A DNA stretch of 21,726 bases, taken from positions 1-21,726 of IMG/VR virus record IMGVR_UViG_3300021962_007927. The stretch is one strand, 5' to 3'. Below the pieces are notes generated by a model that saw only the letters and a list, made by a program, of their open reading frames with translations, searched no databases and was not told the DNA's origin. This document shows, one piece after another, positions 8,159-21,066 of the stretch (position 1 is the first letter of the stretch; each line of letters opens with the position of its first letter). A program made the position numbers and the translations under genes. Source of the stretch: a virus.

Positions 8159-8815
8159 ATGGCTTACGAAAACTACAGATTTGTATCTTGGACTAATGGT
8201 ACACCGATTACAGGTGAAAGACTCGCTCAGATGTCTACTAACATTGAGCAGGTTAAGGATGCAACAGATAATCGCCCGCAAGGTGTCATTCAGTTACATC
8301 AGATTACCGCTGATGTACCAAACAGCACAGGGTACTCAGACTTTGTAGAGTATGAACTTATATCGTTAACCGAGGATCCCCCTGCTGATCGCCGTGTTAG
8401 CGTTGATGGTAATAGATACTATAAGTTATCTCTTCACTTCCCTGGTTTTCTTGTCAAAGAAAGAGGCGCAGAGGATTCAACATTCTTGATTAAGTTTTAT
8501 CAAGGAACTTTTGGTAATGCAAGTACTCTTTTGAATACTTGGAAAATTACACCTCCTATTTTTTCTTTTTATGATGTTTCATCAAATGCATCAACAACTA
8601 GTATTGATGTTAAATCAGCCGGGTATCCCACTAGATTTGGCGCTGGGGATTATTCTGTTATCCTAACATCGTCGTCTTCTGGTTTAACAACTGAGTCATT
8701 CTATGTATCCATAAAAAGAGATCAGGGTGCTAACACTACAAATGCACCATCGTATTATGTGCCTAGCGGGGGTACTGCTATGCAGTTTTATGTTGAGGAT
8801 GTTGGCGGAACCTGA
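8159..8815 (+). CDS. Minor tail or fibre-associated protein, function unknown
   Basis: ATG 8159 follows AAAGGA at 8148-8153. The 218-residue product begins MAYENYRFVSWTNGTPITGERLAQMSTNIEQV, a helical-looking N-terminus of a type I associate with small actinophage tail proteins encoded after the fibre. The rest looks like a beta-rich domain (residues about 55-218: RRVSVDGNRYYKLSLHFPGF, FLIKFYQG, YSVILTSSSSG, ESFYVSIKRDQG, MQFYVEDVGG). No catalytic motif, signal peptide or membrane segment is visible. Its place at the end of the tail run suggests a virion component, possibly binding the fibre or a ligand. Its stop codon overlaps the start of the HNH gene (TGATG), so the two are probably translationally coupled or the HNH gene landed exactly at the junction. 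Confidence 0.65.
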   Translation: MAYENYRFVSWTNGTPITGERLAQMSTNIEQVKDATDNRPQGVIQLHQITADVPNSTGYSDFVEYELISLTEDPPADRRVSVDGNRYYKLSLHFPGFLVKERGAEDSTFLIKFYQGTFGNASTLLNTWKITPPIFSFYDVSSNASTTSIDVKSAGYPTRFGAGDYSVILTSSSSGLTTESFYVSIKRDQGANTTNAPSYYVPSGGTAMQFYVEDVGGT

Positions 8816-9249
8816 TGCACCGCAGAGAACTTGCTTCTCAAAGAAAAGATATATCTTGGAACCCAAGAAATAACACTGGTGTTAATAATCCTAATTTTTC
8901 TGGTGGAAAGTACATCGATGATAAAGGGTATGTCCGAGTCTTGTTGCCCGACCATCCGCGAAATATTCGTGGATATGTTTATGAACATCGACTTTTGATG
9001 GAACAATATATGGGTCGATATTTGGAACCTTGGGAAACTGTCCATCATATTAATGAGATAAAAACAGACAATCGTATAGAAAATTTCTTTCTTTGCACTC
9101 ATAAAGAGCATAGTGCTGTTCACATGGAAGGAAGAAAAACAAGCGTTGCTCAAAAAGAAAAGCTCAGAACCAGCATTAAAGGCACTAAGCCTCATACTAA
9201 AAAACGAGATTTTGCTAAGAAAACTATACCCATAAAAAAAATATCATAA
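8815..9249 (+). CDS. HNH endonuclease (HNH_3-type, probably a free-standing homing endonuclease)
   Basis: The 144-residue protein starts at ATG 8815, overlapping the previous stop by one base. Residues about 33-105 form a typical phage HNH module: GYVRVLLPDHP, then YEHRLLMEQYMGRYL, the core VHHINEIKTDNRIENF with H77, H78 and N86, and CTHKEHSAVH with H96/H103. This His-Asn-His set binds one divalent metal and nicks or cuts DNA. The basic C-terminal tail (residues 105-144, many Lys) probably adds DNA contacts. Homing endonucleases of this kind spread by cutting genomes that lack them. The gene lies exactly between the tail module and the metallophosphoesterase, a usual insertion spot. An inter-gene regulatory or packaging role cannot be excluded. 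Confidence 0.85.
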   Translation: MHRRELASQRKDISWNPRNNTGVNNPNFSGGKYIDDKGYVRVLLPDHPRNIRGYVYEHRLLMEQYMGRYLEPWETVHHINEIKTDNRIENFFLCTHKEHSAVHMEGRKTSVAQKEKLRTSIKGTKPHTKKRDFAKKTIPIKKIS

Positions 9250-10900: not shown

Positions 10901-11331
10901 TAACTAATAAAATTATAGAAAACAAATTCTACTTGTATAAGGGTAAGTCAGTTAAAGTCAAGAAAATTCACAGATCTTCAAATAGTGTTATTGTAAAATA
11001 TCTATTGGAAGATATTGAAGAAACTATTCCTTTCAATGGCGGTGAACTTTTGCTGCAAAGGTTGTATACAATTGGTGAACTTGCTAAAATTACTGAAAAG
11101 AGATCTGACACCTTGAGAAAGTATGAAAAGGGCGGTCTGATTCCAAAGCCTTCTTATATCATTGATGAAAATCAAAATTGCTATAAGAATTGGAGATTCT
11201 ACACCGAGTCTGAAGTGTATGATGTGGTATCGTTCTTTTCAAATCGGACTCCTGGCCGACCGGCCCAGGGTAGAAAAACAAATATCAAATCAAATATTAT
11301 CTCACTAAAGGAGAGAGTGAATAGGTTATGA
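10897..11331 (+). CDS. MerR-like helix-turn-helix DNA-binding protein
   Basis: ATG 10897 overlaps the preceding TGA (ATGA). The 144-residue protein has an N-terminal region of about 52 residues with strand-rich basic sequence (FYLYKGKSVKVKKIHR, VIVKYLLEDIEETIPF), perhaps a small SH3-like barrel. Residues about 56-115 resemble a MerR-type winged helix: LYTIGELAKITEKRSDTLRK, YEKGGLIPKP, then NWRFYTESEVYDVVSFF. The C-terminus has a basic GRPAQGRK segment (residues 120-127) like an AT hook. There is no effector domain of classic MerR regulators, so it may be a phage transcription regulator or an excisionase-like architectural protein. It sits in a run of four small genes ahead of the replication genes. 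Confidence 0.7.
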   Translation: MITNKIIENKFYLYKGKSVKVKKIHRSSNSVIVKYLLEDIEETIPFNGGELLLQRLYTIGELAKITEKRSDTLRKYEKGGLIPKPSYIIDENQNCYKNWRFYTESEVYDVVSFFSNRTPGRPAQGRKTNIKSNIISLKERVNRL

Positions 11332-11522
11332 TGGAAAATGACAAAGCTGAAATCTGGGCTTCTATTGGCATTACAAAGAACCTGGGTAATTATGAATCAC
11401 TGAGACTTGATGCAGGTGCTAAGATTATGGCTTCTGGTCTTGATGATGGTTCTGCTTGGGAAAAACTTTGGGCTTCGATTGATGAGCAAATCGAATCTAA
11501 GCTTAAAGAGTTGGATAAGTGA
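11328..11522 (+). CDS. Small acidic protein of unknown function
   Basis: A 64-residue protein whose ATG at 11328 overlaps the MerR-like stop (ATGA); the adjacent ATG 11331 is an equally possible start. It contains WASIGITKNLGNYESLRLDAG (from residue 10), then a helical, acidic C-terminus (AWEKLWASIDEQIESKLKELDK). The layout of a short strand pair plus a helix resembles small phage proteins of actinophages whose role is unknown. Its stop overlaps the start of the WhiB gene (GTGA). No motif gives a function. Confidence 0.6.
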   Translation: MMENDKAEIWASIGITKNLGNYESLRLDAGAKIMASGLDDGSAWEKLWASIDEQIESKLKELDK

Positions 11523-11767
11523 GTTGGCTAGACAAGGCTGTTTGCGCTTCTGATAAGCATTCTGATTACTGGCTTTCTTATGACCTTGAAAAGATAGATT
11601 ATGCCAAAGCTGGTTGTGATAAATGCACTGTGCATATTGAGTGTTTTACTAATAGTATTGCAATGGATGATGAACCTGTCGGTGTCGTTGCAGGTGTATC
11701 AGAGTTTGAAAGATTACTTGCTGACTGGAAGGAGGTGACTGATATAAATGGCTCTAACTGGGAGTGA
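11519..11767 (+). CDS. whiB: WhiB-like iron-sulfur transcription regulator
   Basis: GTG 11519 overlaps the previous TGA. The 82-residue product has four Cys (C9, C33, C36, C42) in the WhiB order C-x23-C-x2-C-x5-C, which bind a [4Fe-4S] cluster. The segment GVVAGVSEFER (residues 55-65) matches the turn after the cluster, usually G-[VI]-W-G-G-x-(T/S)-x-x-E-R; here Trp is Val and the first of the two following Gly is Ala. The basic C-terminal DNA-binding tail of many host WhiB proteins is missing: the end is TDINGSNWE. WhiB proteins are confined to Actinobacteria and their phages, and phage copies such as that of TM4 interfere with host regulation by binding the sigma factor. Its 3' end contains the ribosome site of the next gene and overlaps it by 20 bases. 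Confidence 0.87.
   Translation: MSWLDKAVCASDKHSDYWLSYDLEKIDYAKAGCDKCTVHIECFTNSIAMDDEPVGVVAGVSEFERLLADWKEVTDINGSNWE
11729..11738 (+). promoter_or_regulatory. Very strong Shine-Dalgarno inside the whiB 3' end
   Basis: AAGGAGGTGA is a ten-base match to the complement of the 16S rRNA 3' end, nine bases before ATG 11748. It lies within whiB coding sequence and fixes the start of the next gene in spite of the 20-base overlap. Confidence 0.85.
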
Positions 11768-12059
11768 TGTTGTAGAAGTATTTAAGATTTACTGTAAAGA
11801 GTACAGTAAGTTATTTGTACCGGACTCTCCACGCCAGGATGAGGTTGCTGATAGCCTTGCTAATCACTATGATAGTGATACGCTGCTTGATGCGATAAAG
11901 TGGTATATTGAAAAAGAAGACGGGCCGATTCTTGTTTTTGATTTTGCACTTAAGTCAAGAGACTATGTGGAAAAAGTCAAGAAAGAAAAGGCTTCCGTTG
12001 ATAGATTTAAACAGACCGTTGCGGAGACTAGAAAGCTTATAGAAAATAATGAACTATGA
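11748..12059 (+). CDS. Small protein before the helicase; possible helicase loader
   Basis: The 103-residue protein starts at ATG 11748 behind an unusually strong ribosome site. It is mostly helical: residues 5-40 (VVEVFKIYCKEYSKLF, SPRQDEVADSLANHY), 41-75 (LLDAIKWYIEKEDGPILVFDF) and a charged C-terminal helix (EKVKKEKASVDRFKQTVAETRKLIENN). Its stop overlaps the start of the DnaB-type helicase by 11 bases. A small helical protein directly before a phage helicase is where helicase loaders or replisome organisers are often encoded. There is no ATPase motif, so it would not be a DnaC-type loader. Function is inferred from position only. Confidence 0.6.
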   Translation: MALTGSDVVEVFKIYCKEYSKLFVPDSPRQDEVADSLANHYDSDTLLDAIKWYIEKEDGPILVFDFALKSRDYVEKVKKEKASVDRFKQTVAETRKLIENNEL

Positions 12060-13269
12060 AATGCGCTTAATTAATTCGATTGTTGAAACCGGAGATATGG
12101 TTACAGCAGTTAATCAAGGCGTTGATGGTGTATTTTCTGAGTACAGAGATATATGGAACTTTGTTCTCAGTCACTACGATAAGCACAGTAAAGCACCTTC
12201 AAAGGATACAATCAAGTCACACTTTTCTGACTTTGAATTCATCAATGCGACAGAGCCTCTCGAATACTATATAGATCAGGCTAAAAAAGAGTCTCTGTCC
12301 ATCCAGACAAGGCGTATTGTCGCTCAAGCGCACTCTTTGCTTGGCGAGATGGGGCCAAAAGAAGCTTTGTCTTTCTTGATGGAAAATACATCAAAACTTT
12401 ACAAGTACTCAAGCAATCTAAAAGATACTGATCTCGTCAGCGAATGGCGTGACAGGTTTGAAGACTTGAAGGAAAGAGCTAGTAATCCAGATAAAAACAC
12501 TCTTGGTATTCCTAGTGGTGTGTCTGTTATTGATAAAGTGTTTGGTGGTTGGCAACCAGGTGACTTTATTGTACTGCTCGGTTGGACTGGCGTGGGCAAG
12601 TCATTTATTGCCAGACTTTTTGCCGTAAATGCATGGCGTGCTGGCTACCGGCCAATGATTATCTCATTGGAGATGAATAAACAGCAGGAGGGGCAGAGGC
12701 TTGATACTTTGCTGAACAATGGTGAGGGTAACTTTACCAATACTGATTTAGTAAAAGCCAACCCTGGCATTGTAGATAGATATGGGCAGTGGGCTGAGGT
12801 GACGTTTGAAGGCAAACAGCCAATTTACTTGATTACATCAGAGGGTCTTGAAACAGCAGACCAAAACATGGTTCAGGCTAAGATTGATCAGTATCAGCCA
12901 GATATGGTTATTCTGGACTATCATGGTCTATTTGATGATTCAAGTGGTGCTAAGAATGAAACAGAGAAGGCTAAGAACCTGTCTAAAGCTTTTAAAAGAA
13001 TAGCGGTTAAAAACAACGTGCCTATCATTGACGTTGCTGCTGTAACGATGTCGGAAGGTCATAGTGAAAGACCACCGGAGTTAGAAGAAGTTGCTTGGTC
13101 AAAGCAGTTGGCATATGATGCTGATCTTGTTCTTGCAATCCACAGAGAGTACAACTCGGACGTATTCCAGGTTGTGTCTAGAAAAGTAAGAAGAGCTACG
13201 CATTTTGGTTTTTATTTGAAATGGAATCTGGAAACTGGCAAGTGGAACGAAGAATGGGATCTAACATGA
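12049..13269 (+). CDS. dnaB: DnaB-type replicative helicase
   Basis: ATG 12049 is used; ATG 12061 (four residues later) is possible and neither has a clear ribosome site, so coupling with the preceding gene is likely. The 406-residue protein has a reduced N-terminal helical domain (about 1-125) and a RecA-fold C-terminal domain (about 150-406). Visible motifs are GIPSGVSVIDKVFGGWQPGD leading in, Walker A GWTGVGKS (178-185), RPMIISLEMN (201-210), and Walker B MVILDYHGLFDD (286-297). The next DnaB motif usually reads like SQLNR; here it is VAAVTMSEGHSERPPELEEV (329-348), so the sensor Gln is not conserved. DADLVLAIHRE (357-367) fits the arginine-finger region. The ring helicase unwinds DNA at the fork using ATP, with the primase encoded just downstream. 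At 406 residues it is shorter than bacterial DnaB, as in other phages. Confidence 0.88.
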   Translation: MNYEMRLINSIVETGDMVTAVNQGVDGVFSEYRDIWNFVLSHYDKHSKAPSKDTIKSHFSDFEFINATEPLEYYIDQAKKESLSIQTRRIVAQAHSLLGEMGPKEALSFLMENTSKLYKYSSNLKDTDLVSEWRDRFEDLKERASNPDKNTLGIPSGVSVIDKVFGGWQPGDFIVLLGWTGVGKSFIARLFAVNAWRAGYRPMIISLEMNKQQEGQRLDTLLNNGEGNFTNTDLVKANPGIVDRYGQWAEVTFEGKQPIYLITSEGLETADQNMVQAKIDQYQPDMVILDYHGLFDDSSGAKNETEKAKNLSKAFKRIAVKNNVPIIDVAAVTMSEGHSERPPELEEVAWSKQLAYDADLVLAIHREYNSDVFQVVSRKVRRATHFGFYLKWNLETGKWNEEWDLT

Positions 13270-14366: not shown

Positions 14367-15008
14367 ATGTTTGAATCATTAAAGACACTAAAAGATTTGG
14401 AAAAGAATATTCCAACAAAAGCTGGAGGGTCTGGAGTTAAGAAGTTTTTCTCCATCTCTTCTGGTGAAACATTCAAGATTAGATTCCGTCAGGAACTGAC
14501 AGAGGATTCTAAGAATTTTGACGAAGAGATTGGTACAGCCATTACTGTGCCGGTTGTTACTTCGCCTATTAACTGGAAGTGGCGTGCTGCTTCTACTGCT
14601 GGGCTTGAGAAGTTCAATTATCGTTGTTGGGCTAGTGAGCAGATTTCCAAGGATACTCGTTGGAAGCCGAAGCCTCATTTGCTGATCAATGTTGCTGTTG
14701 AGACTGAGCCTGGTACTTGGGAACCGCGTATCATTGATACTACGTTTAATCAGCGACACATCGGTTTGACGTTGATTGAGTATGCTAAGGAGTTTGGTAC
14801 AATTACTGACCGTTACTACAAGTATGGTCGCACCGGCTCTGGCGCTCAGGATACTAATTACACGCTGATTCCGTTGGATCAGTCGCCTATGCCCGACAAC
14901 ATTAGATCGTTGCCTACGCACGATCTTAACACTGTTTATATGACGCTTCCTTATGCGAAGCAAGAGTCTTTCTTTACAACTGGTGAGTTGACGAAAGACG
15001 AGTGGTGA
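14367..15008 (+). CDS. ssb: Probable single-stranded DNA-binding protein
   Basis: ATG 14367 lies downstream of a GGAGG/AAGG stretch at 14350-14358, five bases past the primase stop. The 213-residue protein has a short basic N-terminus (residues 1-26) and a beta-rich, aromatic core (FKIRFRQEL, NWKWRAASTAGLEKFNYRCW, WKPKPHLLINVAVET, WEPRIIDTTF) that looks like an OB fold. Its acidic end (GELTKDEW) resembles the acidic C-terminal tip by which SSB proteins contact partners. There is no catalytic motif. Position between primase and polymerase fits an SSB, which coats and protects unwound DNA. No DNA ligand has been shown, so the call rests on similarity of layout and context. Codons are T/G-ending and CGT-rich, like the polymerase core and unlike the adjacent primase. 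Confidence 0.6.
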   Translation: MFESLKTLKDLEKNIPTKAGGSGVKKFFSISSGETFKIRFRQELTEDSKNFDEEIGTAITVPVVTSPINWKWRAASTAGLEKFNYRCWASEQISKDTRWKPKPHLLINVAVETEPGTWEPRIIDTTFNQRHIGLTLIEYAKEFGTITDRYYKYGRTGSGAQDTNYTLIPLDQSPMPDNIRSLPTHDLNTVYMTLPYAKQESFFTTGELTKDEW

Positions 15009-15057: not shown

Positions 15058-15597
15058 ATGACTAAGACTATTTGTTTAGACCTTGACGGTGTTATCACCG
15101 ATATTGGTGCTAGTTTAAAAAATTGCGCTGAAAAAGATCTTATTGATTTTGATGCTTCGCATATTGGTGAAGCATTATTAACTCCTGATGGTGTTGACTA
15201 TCTTGAGTTTATATTTGAAGATCCTCTGTTCTGGAGGAATCTTAAACCAATTCGTGAGTCATGGCACGCTATTAATCACTGGTTCATGGCCGGGTATGAC
15301 ATTGTGTTTGTTACAGCTCGGCGCTCTGATACATCCATTGGTGAAATGGTCCCTTGGTTAGACGGTTGGCGTGTCATGTACTCTGACATTATTGTTTGCG
15401 ACATGGGTTATAAGTATGAGCATCTGCTCAGATTAAATCCTGTTTTTTATGTGGATGATAATCCGTCAGAGATTGAAAAAGTAAATAAAGAGACTGACAT
15501 CAACTCTTTTGTCATCAAGCATTGGTACAATGAGAGTTTGATCAGTAAGTCTACTAAATGGATTAACGACATCTCACATATACAGGTTCAAAAATAG
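15058..15597 (+). CDS. HAD-family hydrolase, 5'(3')-deoxyribonucleotidase-like
   Basis: ATG 15058 follows AGAGG at 15046-15050. The 179-residue protein has HAD motif I DLDGVITD (D8 nucleophile, D10 acid), motif II in FVTAR (T86), a likely motif III Lys (K119, YKYEHLL) and motif IV VDDNPSEIE (D133, D134). The short cap insertion between motifs I and II fits the NT5C/deoxyribonucleotidase-like group of phosphatases. Such enzymes dephosphorylate nucleoside monophosphates, or, in other HAD members, DNA 3' phosphate ends. The exact substrate is not clear. The gene sits between ssb and dnaE, so a role in nucleotide pools or end processing during replication is likely. The stop codon TAG shares a base with the GTG start of dnaE. 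Confidence 0.78.
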   Translation: MTKTICLDLDGVITDIGASLKNCAEKDLIDFDASHIGEALLTPDGVDYLEFIFEDPLFWRNLKPIRESWHAINHWFMAGYDIVFVTARRSDTSIGEMVPWLDGWRVMYSDIIVCDMGYKYEHLLRLNPVFYVDDNPSEIEKVNKETDINSFVIKHWYNESLISKSTKWINDISHIQVQK

Positions 15598-18500
15598 TGA
15601 CTGACTTTGTACACCTTCATTGCCATTCTGAGTATTCATTGCTTGACGGTATGTCCACACCTCTTGATATAGCAACTATTGCTTCCACTAATGGTCAATA
15701 TGCTGCCTCTATCACAGATCACGGAACAATGGGGGGTGTATTGAAGTTTCAGAATGCCTGTAAGAAAACCGGTGTAAAACCGATCTTTGGTGTTGAGGCT
15801 TATTTTGTTGATTCTGTTGATAATGATGGTGATGGTCGGCATGAGCGTTTTCACCTAATTTTGCTGGCTAAGAATAATGAGGGTTTGCAGAAGCTGTTTA
15901 AGGCTAGCCAAGTTGGTTGGACTAATAATTTCTACTACAAGCCTCGTATGGATTTTGATTTACTTGAAGACATTGTAGATAACGATATTGTCGCCCTGTC
16001 CGGTTGTCTTGGTGGTGCTATCTGTAAAGCAATTGAGGCCGGCAATACTGCCAGGGCTGAGCAATTGTCTGAGCGTTTCATCAAGATATTTGGTGATGAT
16101 TTCTACTATGAAGTGCAGGCTTGGAATCCTGAATATATAAATAAGGGCTTGTTTGATTTGGCGGCCTCATTCAATAAGAAGCCTGTCGCTACTGCTGACT
16201 GCCATTTCCCTACTCATGATGATCATGGCCATGAAGAAGTTCTACTGATGATCTCTCAGTACCCCTCCCTTAATGCTGGTGATTTGCGTAAGGCCAAAGA
16301 GAATATTCGTCATGACGGTAGCATTATTGACAAAATGAATGCTATGTATCCTGATCGTTTCTTGCGTTTTGATCAGATTAATCCTTATATTGCCTCTGCT
16401 TCTGAGATTCAGTCGTGGTTTCAGGAAGTTGGTGTTGATAGAACTGACATCCTCGAAAACACTATGGAAGTGGCTGAGAAGTGTAGCGCCGAAATACCGA
16501 CTAAGCAGAGGCTTCTTCCTAAGTTTATGAAGTCGCTTGATTCGGATAGTTATTTGCGTGAGGTTGCGACTTTTGAGTTGGAACAGCGTGGCCTCGGTAA
16601 AGACTATGTTGATCGTTTGGATGAGGAACTTGAGGTTATTTCTCGGCTTGGGTTTAGTGATTATTTTTTGATGGTGTGGGATTTGGTGAAGTGGGCTGAC
16701 AATAATCATGTTGGTCGTGGGCCTGGTCGTGGTTCTGTTGGTGGTAGTTTGTTGGCGTTTTTGTTGGATATTTCTAAGGTTGATCCTATTAAGTATGGGT
16801 TGTTGTTTTCGCGGTTTTTGAATCCTGAGCGTAATGATTATCCTGATATTGATTTGGATTTTGAGGATAAGCAGCGTGATCGTGTTAAGGAGTATTTGAA
16901 GGAGCGTTGGGGTTCTGATAATGTTGCGGCGATTTCGATTTATGGTACGTTTAAGGCTAAGAGTGTTGTTAAGGATATTTCCCGTGTGTATCAAGTGCCG
17001 TTTGAGGAAATCAATAATATTACGCCGTTTTTTGAAACGTTAGATGAACTTGAGCAGTCGCCTAAGGGTAAGGTTTTTAATTCTAAGTATCCTGATGTGT
17101 TGCCGATTGCTCGTAAGTTGGAGAATCGTATTCGTACTGCTGGTATTCATGCTGCTGGTATGGTTGTTTCGTCTGTGCCACTGAGTGAGGTTTGTCCGGT
17201 GGAGAGTCGTAAGAATTCTGGTGGTGATGCTAGGGCGCTTGTTACGGCTTTTGATATGGAGGACGCTGAGGCTGTTGGGTTGATTAAGGTTGATGTTCTT
17301 GGTCTTCGCATGGTTTCGGTGGTTAAGGATTGTTTAGAGAAGATTCGGGAGCGTCATGGTGTTGATGTAACTGGGTTGTCTCTTCAGCTTGATGATGAGG
17401 TTGTGTTCAAGAACTTTAATGATGGCAATACGGTCGGTATTTTTCAGGTTGATGCTGCTGCTTATCGTAATTTGATTGAACGCATGGGTATTTCTGATTT
17501 TAATGATCTTGCTGTGAGTAATGCTCTTGTTCGTCCTGGCGCTCTTCTTTCTCAGGGTCAGCGTTATATTGATTGCAAGAAGGGTGTGGAGAAGCCTAAG
17601 TATCCTCATCCGTCTGTTGAGGGCATTTTGAAGGAAACTTATGGCACGGTGATCTTTCAAGAGCAGTTGATGCAAATGGCTGTGAGTATTTCTGGTTTCT
17701 CTTGGGCTGAGGCTGACAAACTTCGTAAGATCATTGGTAAGAAGCGTGATGCTGCTGAATTCGAGCAGTTCAAGGATAAGTTTATTAGTAATGCTATTAT
17801 TGAGAAGTCTGCTGCTAAGAAGATGTGGTCTGAGTTTGAGCTAGCGGCTCTGTATATGTTTAATAAGTCCCATGCTGTTGCTTATTCTATGTTGTCGTAT
17901 CAGACAATGTGGTTGAAGGTTCATTATCCGATGGAATTCATTTGGTCGCTTCTTTATAATGAAGATGCTCAAGACCGTATCACTGCGTATCTCATGGAGG
18001 CGAATAGGCTTGACATAAAGGTTAATCCGCCCGATGTGAATTTGTCTGACGAGTCATTTACGATTGATGATGATGGTATTCGTTTCGGTTTGAGAAATGT
18101 TGCTAATTGTGGTACGAGTGCTATTACTGAGATTATGGCAAAGCGTCCATTTGATTCTTTTGAGGAGTTTTCTGCTAAGTGTAGCAAGCGGGCTATTAAT
18201 TCTAAGTTGAGAGATAACTTAGATAAGGTCGGTGCGTATGGCAGTATGAATCATGTTTCGGCATATGATCATGAACGGTATTATTTGCCGATTCTGGGTT
18301 TTGCTATCAATCTTGATCAGGAAGAAAATGAGATTGATAAGTATGTTCAGCCGTTGGCTGGCTTCCACGAAATCAACTCTCCTTTGACGTTTGTAAAGGC
18401 TGTGGTGCGTTCTACGAAGAAAACTCCCCAGTACCTGCGTGTGGAGATAGAGGATCAATCAGGGTCCACTACGATCTTCTGTGATCGCAATGCTGAAATA

Positions 18501-18971
18501 GCCAACCGTGATCTGATTTATGCTTTGATCGGTGACAGAACATTGCATATGTTCTGTAACGCCTATGAGTATGCTTCATCTGAGATTATTGATTTGATTG
18601 AGTTGATGGATGAAGGCAAGCAGCATCGGTATTCATGGCTGTATGAGGAAGAACTAGGCACATCTGAGTCAGATAAGAGTCTTATTTACATTTTTAGTAT
18701 TAGATCTTTTGTTACCTCTAAGGGCAAGAATATGTCTAATATTTATGCCTGGGACGGGGAGAAGATTATTAAGATTGTTGTATTCCCTGCCGTGCATAGC
18801 AAAGTTAAGGCTGTTATTAAGGATAAACAGTGGTTTGCTGTGAAGATGTCAAAAATTGTTGAAAAGGAGTCCTTGACTCGCTTGGATTCATATAAACTTG
18901 CTAGTGACACTTCAATTATTTCTATTGAGGATTATATTGAGAGGAAACAATTGCATGCTCCAGCGCACTGA
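15597..18971 (+). CDS. dnaE: DNA polymerase III alpha subunit (DnaE)
   Basis: GTG 15597 begins FVHLHCHSEYSLLDG after overlapping the previous stop by one base. The 1124-residue protein is a full-length DnaE. The N-terminal PHP domain keeps the metal-binding residues H6, H8, D17, H42, E67, H86, C137, D201 and H203. The palm has the catalytic pair D417 and D419 (YPDIDLDF) and a third Asp at D566 (VDVLGLR). Other landmarks are GRGPGRGSVGGSL (373-385), IHAAGMVVS (517-525) and NKSHAVAYSMLSYQTMWLK (756-774). An OB-fold segment is near 928-963. It is the replicative polymerase of the phage. No DnaQ-type exonuclease gene is seen, so the PHP domain may proofread. Codons from about 16540 to about 18300 almost never end in A or C, unlike both gene ends. 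Confidence 0.95.
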   Translation: MTDFVHLHCHSEYSLLDGMSTPLDIATIASTNGQYAASITDHGTMGGVLKFQNACKKTGVKPIFGVEAYFVDSVDNDGDGRHERFHLILLAKNNEGLQKLFKASQVGWTNNFYYKPRMDFDLLEDIVDNDIVALSGCLGGAICKAIEAGNTARAEQLSERFIKIFGDDFYYEVQAWNPEYINKGLFDLAASFNKKPVATADCHFPTHDDHGHEEVLLMISQYPSLNAGDLRKAKENIRHDGSIIDKMNAMYPDRFLRFDQINPYIASASEIQSWFQEVGVDRTDILENTMEVAEKCSAEIPTKQRLLPKFMKSLDSDSYLREVATFELEQRGLGKDYVDRLDEELEVISRLGFSDYFLMVWDLVKWADNNHVGRGPGRGSVGGSLLAFLLDISKVDPIKYGLLFSRFLNPERNDYPDIDLDFEDKQRDRVKEYLKERWGSDNVAAISIYGTFKAKSVVKDISRVYQVPFEEINNITPFFETLDELEQSPKGKVFNSKYPDVLPIARKLENRIRTAGIHAAGMVVSSVPLSEVCPVESRKNSGGDARALVTAFDMEDAEAVGLIKVDVLGLRMVSVVKDCLEKIRERHGVDVTGLSLQLDDEVVFKNFNDGNTVGIFQVDAAAYRNLIERMGISDFNDLAVSNALVRPGALLSQGQRYIDCKKGVEKPKYPHPSVEGILKETYGTVIFQEQLMQMAVSISGFSWAEADKLRKIIGKKRDAAEFEQFKDKFISNAIIEKSAAKKMWSEFELAALYMFNKSHAVAYSMLSYQTMWLKVHYPMEFIWSLLYNEDAQDRITAYLMEANRLDIKVNPPDVNLSDESFTIDDDGIRFGLRNVANCGTSAITEIMAKRPFDSFEEFSAKCSKRAINSKLRDNLDKVGAYGSMNHVSAYDHERYYLPILGFAINLDQEENEIDKYVQPLAGFHEINSPLTFVKAVVRSTKKTPQYLRVEIEDQSGSTTIFCDRNAEIANRDLIYALIGDRTLHMFCNAYEYASSEIIDLIELMDEGKQHRYSWLYEEELGTSESDKSLIYIFSIRSFVTSKGKNMSNIYAWDGEKIIKIVVFPAVHSKVKAVIKDKQWFAVKMSKIVEKESLTRLDSYKLASDTSIISIEDYIERKQLHAPAH

Positions 18972-19676: not shown

Positions 19677-20594
19677 ATGCTATTTGTTGATAAAAGAAAG
19701 GGCGATAGGATGCCCACACATCAGATTATTCCAACACCGAGTTTGGGCTTAAATAAAGCTCTTGGTGGTGGTTTGAATACTGGTGCAACACACCTGTTTT
19801 GGGGTACGCCTTCTGTTGGTAAAACAACGATGTGCTTCAGGATATTGGCCGATGCTCAAAAACTTGGGTTTAGGCCGGTCATTGTAGACTCAGAGTATTC
19901 TTACTCAGATGAGTATGCAAAGAAGTGCGGAATTGACACAGAGGATATTGTTGTTGTACAATCGACTATTGTTGAGGATATCCTCAAGCATCTCATTGGG
20001 TATTTAAATCACCCTGATGAGAAGCACATATTCTTGTTTGACAGTTTGTCAAACATTATTAAAGAAGAGTTTTACGATAAACCTGATGGCGGTAAAGCAA
20101 TGGGGCTTCAGGCCAGATCTCAGGGCTACTTCCTTCAGAAGTTGGTTAATCATCTTCACAAGGAAAAGAATATTATGCTCTTTATTGCTCATCAGACAAT
20201 TGACTTAAGCGGCATGTATGCTGTGACTAAGGCTAAGATGGGTAACACTGTTCATCATAATATGCACAATATTGTAAAGCTCTTCCTTTCAATGTCGCAG
20301 AAGGAGATGGAAAGAGATGAAAGCAGCAGAATTACTAGCCAAAGAGCAACGTGGACGATTGAGAAAACCAAGCAGTTGCCCACGATTGGAACGACAGGCT
20401 ACTACTATGTTTTACCTGAAATTGGTTCTATAGATCAAAGTCGTGAACTGATCGATATGGCTGTTGAATATAATATTATTGAGCGTCGTGGTGCTTGGTA
20501 TAGTTATGGCGATAGTAAGTGGAACGGTCTAAGTGCTATTGATCTGACCGAGGATCAGCAAGAAGAAATCTATAAACAAATCATGGAGAAATAG
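19677..20594 (+). CDS. recA: RecA/UvsX-like recombinase
   Basis: ATG 19677 follows AGGAG at 19667-19671; a second ATG at 19710 (residue 12) is possible. The 305-residue protein has Walker A GTPSVGKT (43-50), a probable catalytic Glu in VDSEYSYSDEYA (E73), Walker B HIFLFD (117-122), LFIAHQT (168-174) as the usual RecA glutamine-containing motif, and a C-terminal RRGAWYSYGDSKWNG (270-284), close to the RecA signature that ends the core. It lacks the long C-terminal tail of bacterial RecA, as do phage UvsX forms. It forms filaments on ssDNA and drives strand exchange, repair and recombination-dependent replication. It is the last gene before a terminator hairpin, so it ends the replication unit. 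Confidence 0.88.
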   Translation: MLFVDKRKGDRMPTHQIIPTPSLGLNKALGGGLNTGATHLFWGTPSVGKTTMCFRILADAQKLGFRPVIVDSEYSYSDEYAKKCGIDTEDIVVVQSTIVEDILKHLIGYLNHPDEKHIFLFDSLSNIIKEEFYDKPDGGKAMGLQARSQGYFLQKLVNHLHKEKNIMLFIAHQTIDLSGMYAVTKAKMGNTVHHNMHNIVKLFLSMSQKEMERDESSRITSQRATWTIEKTKQLPTIGTTGYYYVLPEIGSIDQSRELIDMAVEYNIIERRGAWYSYGDSKWNGLSAIDLTEDQQEEIYKQIMEK

Positions 20595-20658: not shown

Positions 20659-21066
20659 ATGCAAACTTTTCTACCACTTCCAGATTTCAAAGCTTCGATT
20701 GAGGTTCTTGATTACCGAAGACTAGGTAAGCAACGTGTTGAGACATATCAGGTTCTTAACATTCTTCTTGGCCGCACAGATACGAAAGGCTGGGTCAACC
20801 ACCCTGTTACCCGAATGTGGAGGGGTTTCGAAGAGGCGTTGAAGGTCTATCAGAATTTCACCATTGGTGAGTGGATTCGCCGTGGTTACAATAACAATAT
20901 GTCATTTGAGGAAGTTGATGAATCTAATATCATCATGCCATTCTGGTTCGGAGATGATAGAATACATAGATCTCACAGATCGAATCTTCTTAGAAAGGAC
21001 TATGAGTATTACTCACAGTACTTTGATGAGCCGACAGATCTGGAATATTATTGGGCGGTGCAGTGA
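20659..21066 (+). CDS. Pyr_excise/MSMEG_6728-like protein, possible DNA repair glycosylase
   Basis: ATG 20659 follows AGGAGGG at 20649-20655. The 135-residue protein begins MQTFLPLPDFKASIEVLDYR, continues RRLGKQRVETYQVLNILLGR (20-39) and has GWVNHPVTRMWRGFEEAL (44-61) then EWIRRGYNNN (71-80). I recognise this as the MSMEG_6728 protein family, which is grouped with pyrimidine-dimer glycosylases (T4 endonuclease V-like). Such enzymes cut at UV photoproducts. The overall length is close to T4 DenV, and the RRLGKQRVET segment is the part most like it. Whether the active-site residues match has not been shown. It begins a new transcription unit and overlaps the next gene by four bases (GTGA). Confidence 0.72.
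   Translation: MQTFLPLPDFKASIEVLDYRRLGKQRVETYQVLNILLGRTDTKGWVNHPVTRMWRGFEEALKVYQNFTIGEWIRRGYNNNMSFEEVDESNIIMPFWFGDDRIHRSHRSNLLRKDYEYYSQYFDEPTDLEYYWAVQ

Follow-up and report, generated by a model that had tools for sequence, protein, structure and literature searches.

G/T-rich islands at synonymous sites in and around the dnaE gene of a phage and its uncultured relatives

The dnaE locus and its G/T island

The window, by which we mean the whole stretch of DNA that was analysed, is a virus record of 21,726 bases, numbered here along the + strand. Its dnaE gene (15597..18971, + strand) encodes a DNA polymerase III alpha subunit-like protein of 1124 amino acids with PHP, pol3 alpha NTPase, finger and HHH domains, and matches PF07733 (2e-76), PF17657, PF02811, PF14579 and phrog_405. 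Upstream lie an ssb-like gene (14367..15008, + strand; phrog_9721, single-strand DNA binding) and a small gene (15058..15597, + strand; phrog_420, polynucleotide-kinase-like). A gene for a RecA/UvsX-like recombinase follows (19677..20594, + strand; Pfam RecA 7e-21, phrog_97), in which no island starts in the window. Genes for a pyrimidine-dimer DNA glycosylase (20659-21066, + strand; PF03013, 7e-23) and an HNH endonuclease (8815-9249, + strand; PF13392) are also present, and the window gave no Rfam match.

The maximum-scoring G/T-rich segment of dnaE, referred to below as the island, extends over 16499..18359 (+ strand), with 11% A+C at third codon positions compared with 31% elsewhere in the gene. 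In its core (16632..16979, + strand) only 1 of 116 third positions is occupied by A or C. The initial annotation had described an abrupt synonymous-codon shift inside dnaE, and recounting gave the same figures: of the 100 codons at 16680-16979, 63 have T, 36 have G and one has C at the third position, whereas none has A, and the seven Arg codons of this block are all CGN (CGT six times, CGG once), against 12 AGA or AGG codons among the 14 Arg codons of the primase. The remainder of dnaE is mixed, as had also been stated, with A or C at 30.6% of third positions in the 504 codons outside 16499-18359. Relative to this remainder, one A/C codon end in 100 corresponds to a binomial p of 7e-15; the block was picked by eye and is still extreme after correction for every window in the contig. 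The weaker shift reported for ssb is likewise found (A3.13, C3.14). The bounds first proposed, 16540 and 18300, are close to those of the fitted segment. The abrupt 5' edge stands, the logistic fit placing it at 16496 with a width of about 0; the 3' side is gradual and fades over about 2.6 kb.

The list of open reading frames includes an antisense frame of 250 codons opposite dnaE (16242..16994, - strand), which is open because third-position A is missing. We do not propose it as a gene: opening the frame needs the loss of A only, not of C, and the islands move between relatives.

Islands in related phages

Scanning viral contigs for dnaE yielded 80 relatives at 65-95% identity, and further scans added many more. 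Third-position A/C content of dnaE is 30-50% in most relatives, and some have islands at 0-10%. The dnaE of the window phage carries one copy of a feature that recurs in its family. In these related uncultured phages the islands occupy about nine positions, ranging from the gene before dnaE to ruvC. In L017, L022 and L028 the island begins in the gene before dnaE and continues into the latter, and the 5' edge in the L017/L028 clade falls about 60-100 bases inside the homologue of the window's small gene. In L040/L087 the whole of dnaE and further sequence are covered. The window, L005, L006 and L008 share an island at dnaE codons about 298-905, L075 and L110 have one at codons about 250-460, L277 at codons about 240-720, and L290 from codon about 660 onward. 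In L042, L046, L223 and L224 the start of the island lies within the homologue of the RecA-like gene. Finally, in L154 it comprises ruvC and two further genes (11266-12888), and the dnaE of this phage is without an island, its protein being almost identical to that of L004.

A contig usually has a single strong island, and the islands are without exception on the coding (+) strand. Ten long contigs that were read from end to end contained one dominant island or none, the long contigs G002 and G003 being without one. Since nearly all genes share one orientation, the directions of transcription and of replication are inseparable. A mild G/T third-position bias, with about 14-17% A/C in parts, was also observed in very long genes, probably tape-measure genes, of two contigs (G007:8069-13462 and G011:5835-12167).

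The close relatives L002, L003 and L004 have no islands. L002 retains a residual dip over dnaE codons 298-900 (35% vs 50% A/C, p = 5e-7). L058, which shares 95-98% amino-acid identity with L005 across most of dnaE, is losing its island, with 18 derived T>C and 4 derived G>A changes, and a remnant is left at L058:10888-12739. According to the initial annotation, the same pattern in all related dnaE genes would have spoken for local selection and not for transfer; depending on the relative, the pattern is instead present, absent, decaying or displaced. Turnover of sites and relaxation after loss, both of which are expected of biased gene conversion, are thus observed. Mechanism aside, two bases are emptied from thousands of neutral sites in a patch of 1-5 kb that moves between close relatives and then relaxes, and the islands constitute a natural experiment on mutation, repair and replication. 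No description of movable G/T islands was found in the literature searched, the coverage of which was partial.

The cultured relatives Moab, TunaTartare, Genie2 and NiceHouse, whose hosts bear NucS, have no islands. Three of them, the Streptomyces phages Moab, TunaTartare and Genie2 (Stanwilliamsviridae), have the same gene order around dnaE. Annotated tRNA genes are found near the terminase end of the module in cultured relatives (L084:23760-24034, L085:23391-24047), and a tRNA-like sequence was noticed by eye in L040, at about 540-620, upstream of the gene before dnaE.

Logistic fits were used to describe the edges at 19 loci, which represent only about nine independent positions because several are close relatives. 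The 5' edge had a width of no more than 116 nt at 17 of the 19 loci, and the 3' edge one of 500 nt or more at 16, the exceptions with a sharp 3' edge being L001, L005 and L006. The islands set in over roughly 100 bases and as a rule taper off across 0.5-6 kb. They ignore gene boundaries, starting inside genes and crossing from one gene to another. With their abrupt starts, gradual fades and displaced positions, the islands look like the traces of a DNA process that runs in one direction and is specific to one strand. In the L017/L028 clade, a G-run/C-run hairpin-like sequence, e.g. GTGGGGGGAGCAATCCCCCCAC, lies just 5' of the gene that contains the island start (L017 8230-8350, L028 9320-9360 region) and is found in most members.

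Base preferences inside the islands

The pressure is on DNA and not on codons. A is most disfavoured, then C, whereas T and G are about equally preferred and interchange freely; wherever the protein tolerates it, the coding strand has lost A and C. First codon positions shift as well, Leu from CTR to TTR and Arg from AGR to CGN, with odds ratios between island and flank of the same genes of 0.10-0.32 for Leu CTR:TTR and 0.25-0.37 for Arg AGR:CGN. In the island-encoded protein segments Lys, Thr, Asn, Ile and Gln are less frequent and Gly, Val and Asp more frequent. Noncoding bases follow the same trend more weakly, with 68.5% G+T inside islands compared to 53.8% outside.

In L017-type phages the C5-methylase gene contains a second reading frame, about 118 codons long. 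A/C content at methylase-synonymous sites is 47-63% in this frame and mostly 0-13% in the methylase stretches on either side. The second frame thus keeps its A and C within an island, which indicates that only neutral sites yield. This dual-coding frame (about 117 codons, + strand) is conserved inside the C5-cytosine methylase gene (L003:17699-18049, L001:16176-16523, L017:9169-9522, L154:8893-9252, L019:9253-9600) and has a weak to moderate match to phrog_16143. The A/C-rich gap had also been considered as a fresh recombinant patch, a reading that was dropped since the gap coincides with the second frame and the frame is present in phages without islands there.

Among the 267 third-position differences between L028 and L040, 208 are G/T exchanges. 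Transition differences are almost absent in islands, purine-pyrimidine divergence is not raised, and T>G changes are commoner than in flanks. At four-fold sites, islands have a T:G ratio of 2.84 and flanks one of 3.17, whereas A>G and C>T changes by themselves would give 1.82. A model in which G and T are equal and A (3.1) and C (2.0) are disfavoured beats transition-only mutation by 15.6 lnL units and is ahead in 85-93% of bootstraps, the comparison being based on six overlapping sequence pairs. Base-context preferences of the kind left by deaminases showed weak effects only. The substitution pattern therefore mimics base selection at neutral sites with no rise in mutation rate, as expected of biased gene conversion. 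Moreover, A and C are lost to both G and T while G/T exchange is free, which is the pattern expected of a NucS filter.

The effects of translation or mRNA structure that had been offered as alternatives are not supported. Codon selection is hard to reconcile with islands that disregard gene boundaries and with shifts at the first positions of Leu and Arg, and folding energy does not change consistently (z-scores of -1.8 to +2.0, with no common direction). The islands call for caution in analyses of codon usage, antisense ORFs and divergence in phages. A search for a mutator gene common to island contigs and absent from the others found none, these contigs being incomplete. The islands resemble antibody somatic hypermutation in being localised and directional, and diversity-generating retroelements in being sharply bounded. 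They differ from both systems in that no mutator gene was found to correlate with them and a conserved polymerase gene is affected, its synonymous sites changing while the protein is conserved.

Possible origins of the islands

The initial annotation had proposed either recombination with a phage of different codon preference or a selected local composition. A local composition under pressure agrees with the data; import by recombination does not. The directionality of the islands, their sharp start, the single dominant copy per contig and the setting among replication and recombination genes suggest a one-directional start site. We infer, tentatively and at less than even confidence, that a zone of one-directional replication or recombination initiation combined with mismatch rejection by NucS results in G/T-biased gene conversion. 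The fuller proposition, in which this conversion is strand-specific, arises from the one-sided specificity of NucS and acts at movable one-directional phage start sites, is possible but somewhat unlikely.

In the proposed mechanism, the 5' edge would be the putative beginning of a one-directional event, either a start of the R-loop or D-loop type or a one-ended strand invasion. Downstream of this edge the coding strand would be exposed and would pair with the complementary strands of further copies of the genome. The host, presumably an actinobacterium, would be devoid of MutS/MutL and would use NucS, expected to attack mismatches of G and T only (G/T, G/G, T/T) and to spare A/C, A/A and C/C. 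For A to replace G or T on the coding strand, the incoming strand would have to carry T, and the resulting T/G or T/T would be rejected. Replacing T or G by C would call for an incoming G, and the resulting G/T or G/G would be rejected as well. Installing G or T over A or C would involve an incoming C or A and would be accepted. The base rule would thus follow from NucS filtering of the new partners of the exposed coding strand. A and C would lose in each round and G and T would interchange, an effect equivalent to weak selection on DNA. The 3' fade would reflect the declining length of paired tracts, and an island would decay once its start site had moved or been lost.

Biochemical and genetic data on NucS are compatible with such a filter. 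The Streptomyces enzyme cleaves G/T, G/G and T/T; archaeal NucS also cleaves T/C and A/G with variable efficiency, and A/C, C/C and A/A are cleaved by neither (PMC11109965). When oligonucleotides were directed to the lagging-strand template in M. smegmatis, dG-dT and dG-dG were rejected and dC-dC, dA-dA, dC-dA and dA-dC were accepted (PMC11551744). The mismatches through which A or C would come back to the coding strand opposite G or T are exactly those rejected by NucS/EndoMS repair. This repair is known, however, as a host replication repair system, and the phages themselves do not appear to carry it (no phage-encoded NucS in 12 contigs); no base-composition footprint of NucS in phages was found in the literature searched. 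Cultured kin of the window phage infect Streptomyces, and the 80 nearest cellular dnaE genes listed are almost all from Actinomycetota.

The islands have features in common with known systems. GC-biased gene conversion at recombination hotspots of animals and yeast likewise exerts a selection-like local pressure, with polarity from a start, turnover of sites and decay after loss. The islands differ from it by favouring G and T on one strand with hardly any change in overall GC, by their occurrence in phages and by the proposed NucS filter. T4 origins are R-loops with an exposed non-template strand and one-directional leading-strand priming, and share no local motifs (PMC3016281). The T4 origins oriF and oriG are like the islands in combining a one-directional start in a gene array, an exposed non-template strand and the lack of a common motif, but the island edges are putative starts, known here from sequence alone.

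Several observations argue against NucS-filtered conversion. The cultured relatives with NucS-bearing hosts have no islands, and the 5' edges show no excess of promoters of the sigma-70 type, which an R-loop origin should have, and no shared motif, the best common words being no better than controls. The G+T content of noncoding bases is less extreme than it should be at neutral free sites. In addition, the preference for C over A, seen in the Arg AGR to CGN shift, would need stronger rejection of T/C than of A/G, and T/C rejection does not predict the higher rate of T>G changes in islands. If NucS-filtered conversion is nonetheless correct, the islands would map phage replication or recombination start sites in uncultured genomes directly from their sequence, and synonymous sites would show the position and direction of strand exposure and of recombination onset. 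The mismatch specificity of a repair enzyme would then leave a base-composition fossil, and biased gene conversion would be widened from GC versus AT to a single-strand G/T form.

A rather unlikely alternative is strand-specific mutation in an initiation zone near an R-loop or D-loop origin, with A>G and C>T changes accumulating on a single-stranded or unrepaired new coding-sense strand. The direction, sharp start and fade of the islands would all fit, as would the near disappearance of transition differences inside them. T4 R-loop origins leave the non-template strand single-stranded and prime one way (PMC3016281), and in Streptomyces without nucS the leading strand of one replichore shows an excess of A>G (1150 vs 412 T>C) and of C>T (715 vs 274 G>A) (PMC11109965). 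The mitochondrial H-strand is GT-rich (PMC3269014); in animal mitochondria, as in the islands, G and T are enriched and A and C depleted on one strand. However, the mitochondrial bias is genome-wide and transition-driven, whereas the islands span 1-5 kb, are movable with one strong copy per contig, and lose A and C to both G and T. The island T:G ratio likewise exceeds the transition-only expectation, and purine-pyrimidine divergence is not up, as noted above. The Arg AGR to CGN shift exchanges A and C and is neither an A>G nor a C>T change, although mutational robustness at Arg codons could explain part of it. Finally, the loss of A exceeds that of C, the reverse of the usual order of spontaneous deamination, which hits C more than A.

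Direct selection for an A/C-poor coding strand, such that displaced single-stranded DNA would be unstructured or well bound by SSB or by the UvsX/RecA-like recombinase, is unlikely. The islands do sit among replication and recombination genes, and RecA and Rad51 prefer GT-rich DNA in other systems, according to literature as cited by PMC3763553. The fit at four-fold sites is equal to that of biased conversion; the two are mathematically alike and lead to one and the same equilibrium. What speaks for biased conversion is the loss and decay of islands in close relatives: L002, L003 and L004 have none, and the rates of decay in L058 and L002 are apparently neutral, so that a selected function would have to be dispensable. 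Selection on hundreds of sites along as much as 5 kb would also be demanding, and RNA folding is not consistently weaker.

A transcription-linked pressure, in which a strong promoter near the 5' edge would keep the non-template strand exposed downstream, is improbable; its shape would be comparable to that of antibody-gene hypermutation. The 5' start and 3' fade do follow the direction of transcription, and L154 has a TATAAT about 20 bases before its island edge. However, promoter scores at 11 edges were equal to those of controls (8.27 vs 8.52) and no promoter match was found near 16499 in the window, both with a sigma-70-type consensus only. Moreover, contigs have one strong island and not one for each strong promoter.

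Import of a G/T-rich segment from another phage, which the sharp 5' edge and the existence of G/T-rich dnaE lineages (L028, L040) might suggest, is very hard to credit, since island positions differ among close relatives and the island and flank protein trees are congruent. Splitting dnaE into codons 1-297, 298-905 and 906-1119, along the lines suggested in the initial annotation, placed the window compatibly in all three segment trees, with its sister L001 nearest and then L002 among the nearest. For the island segment, placing the window beside the distant G/T-rich clade is rejected by the AU test (p = 2.3e-5), as is a placement with the L005 group, which has a similar island (p = 0.017). 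Amino-acid identity orders the relatives alike inside and outside the island.
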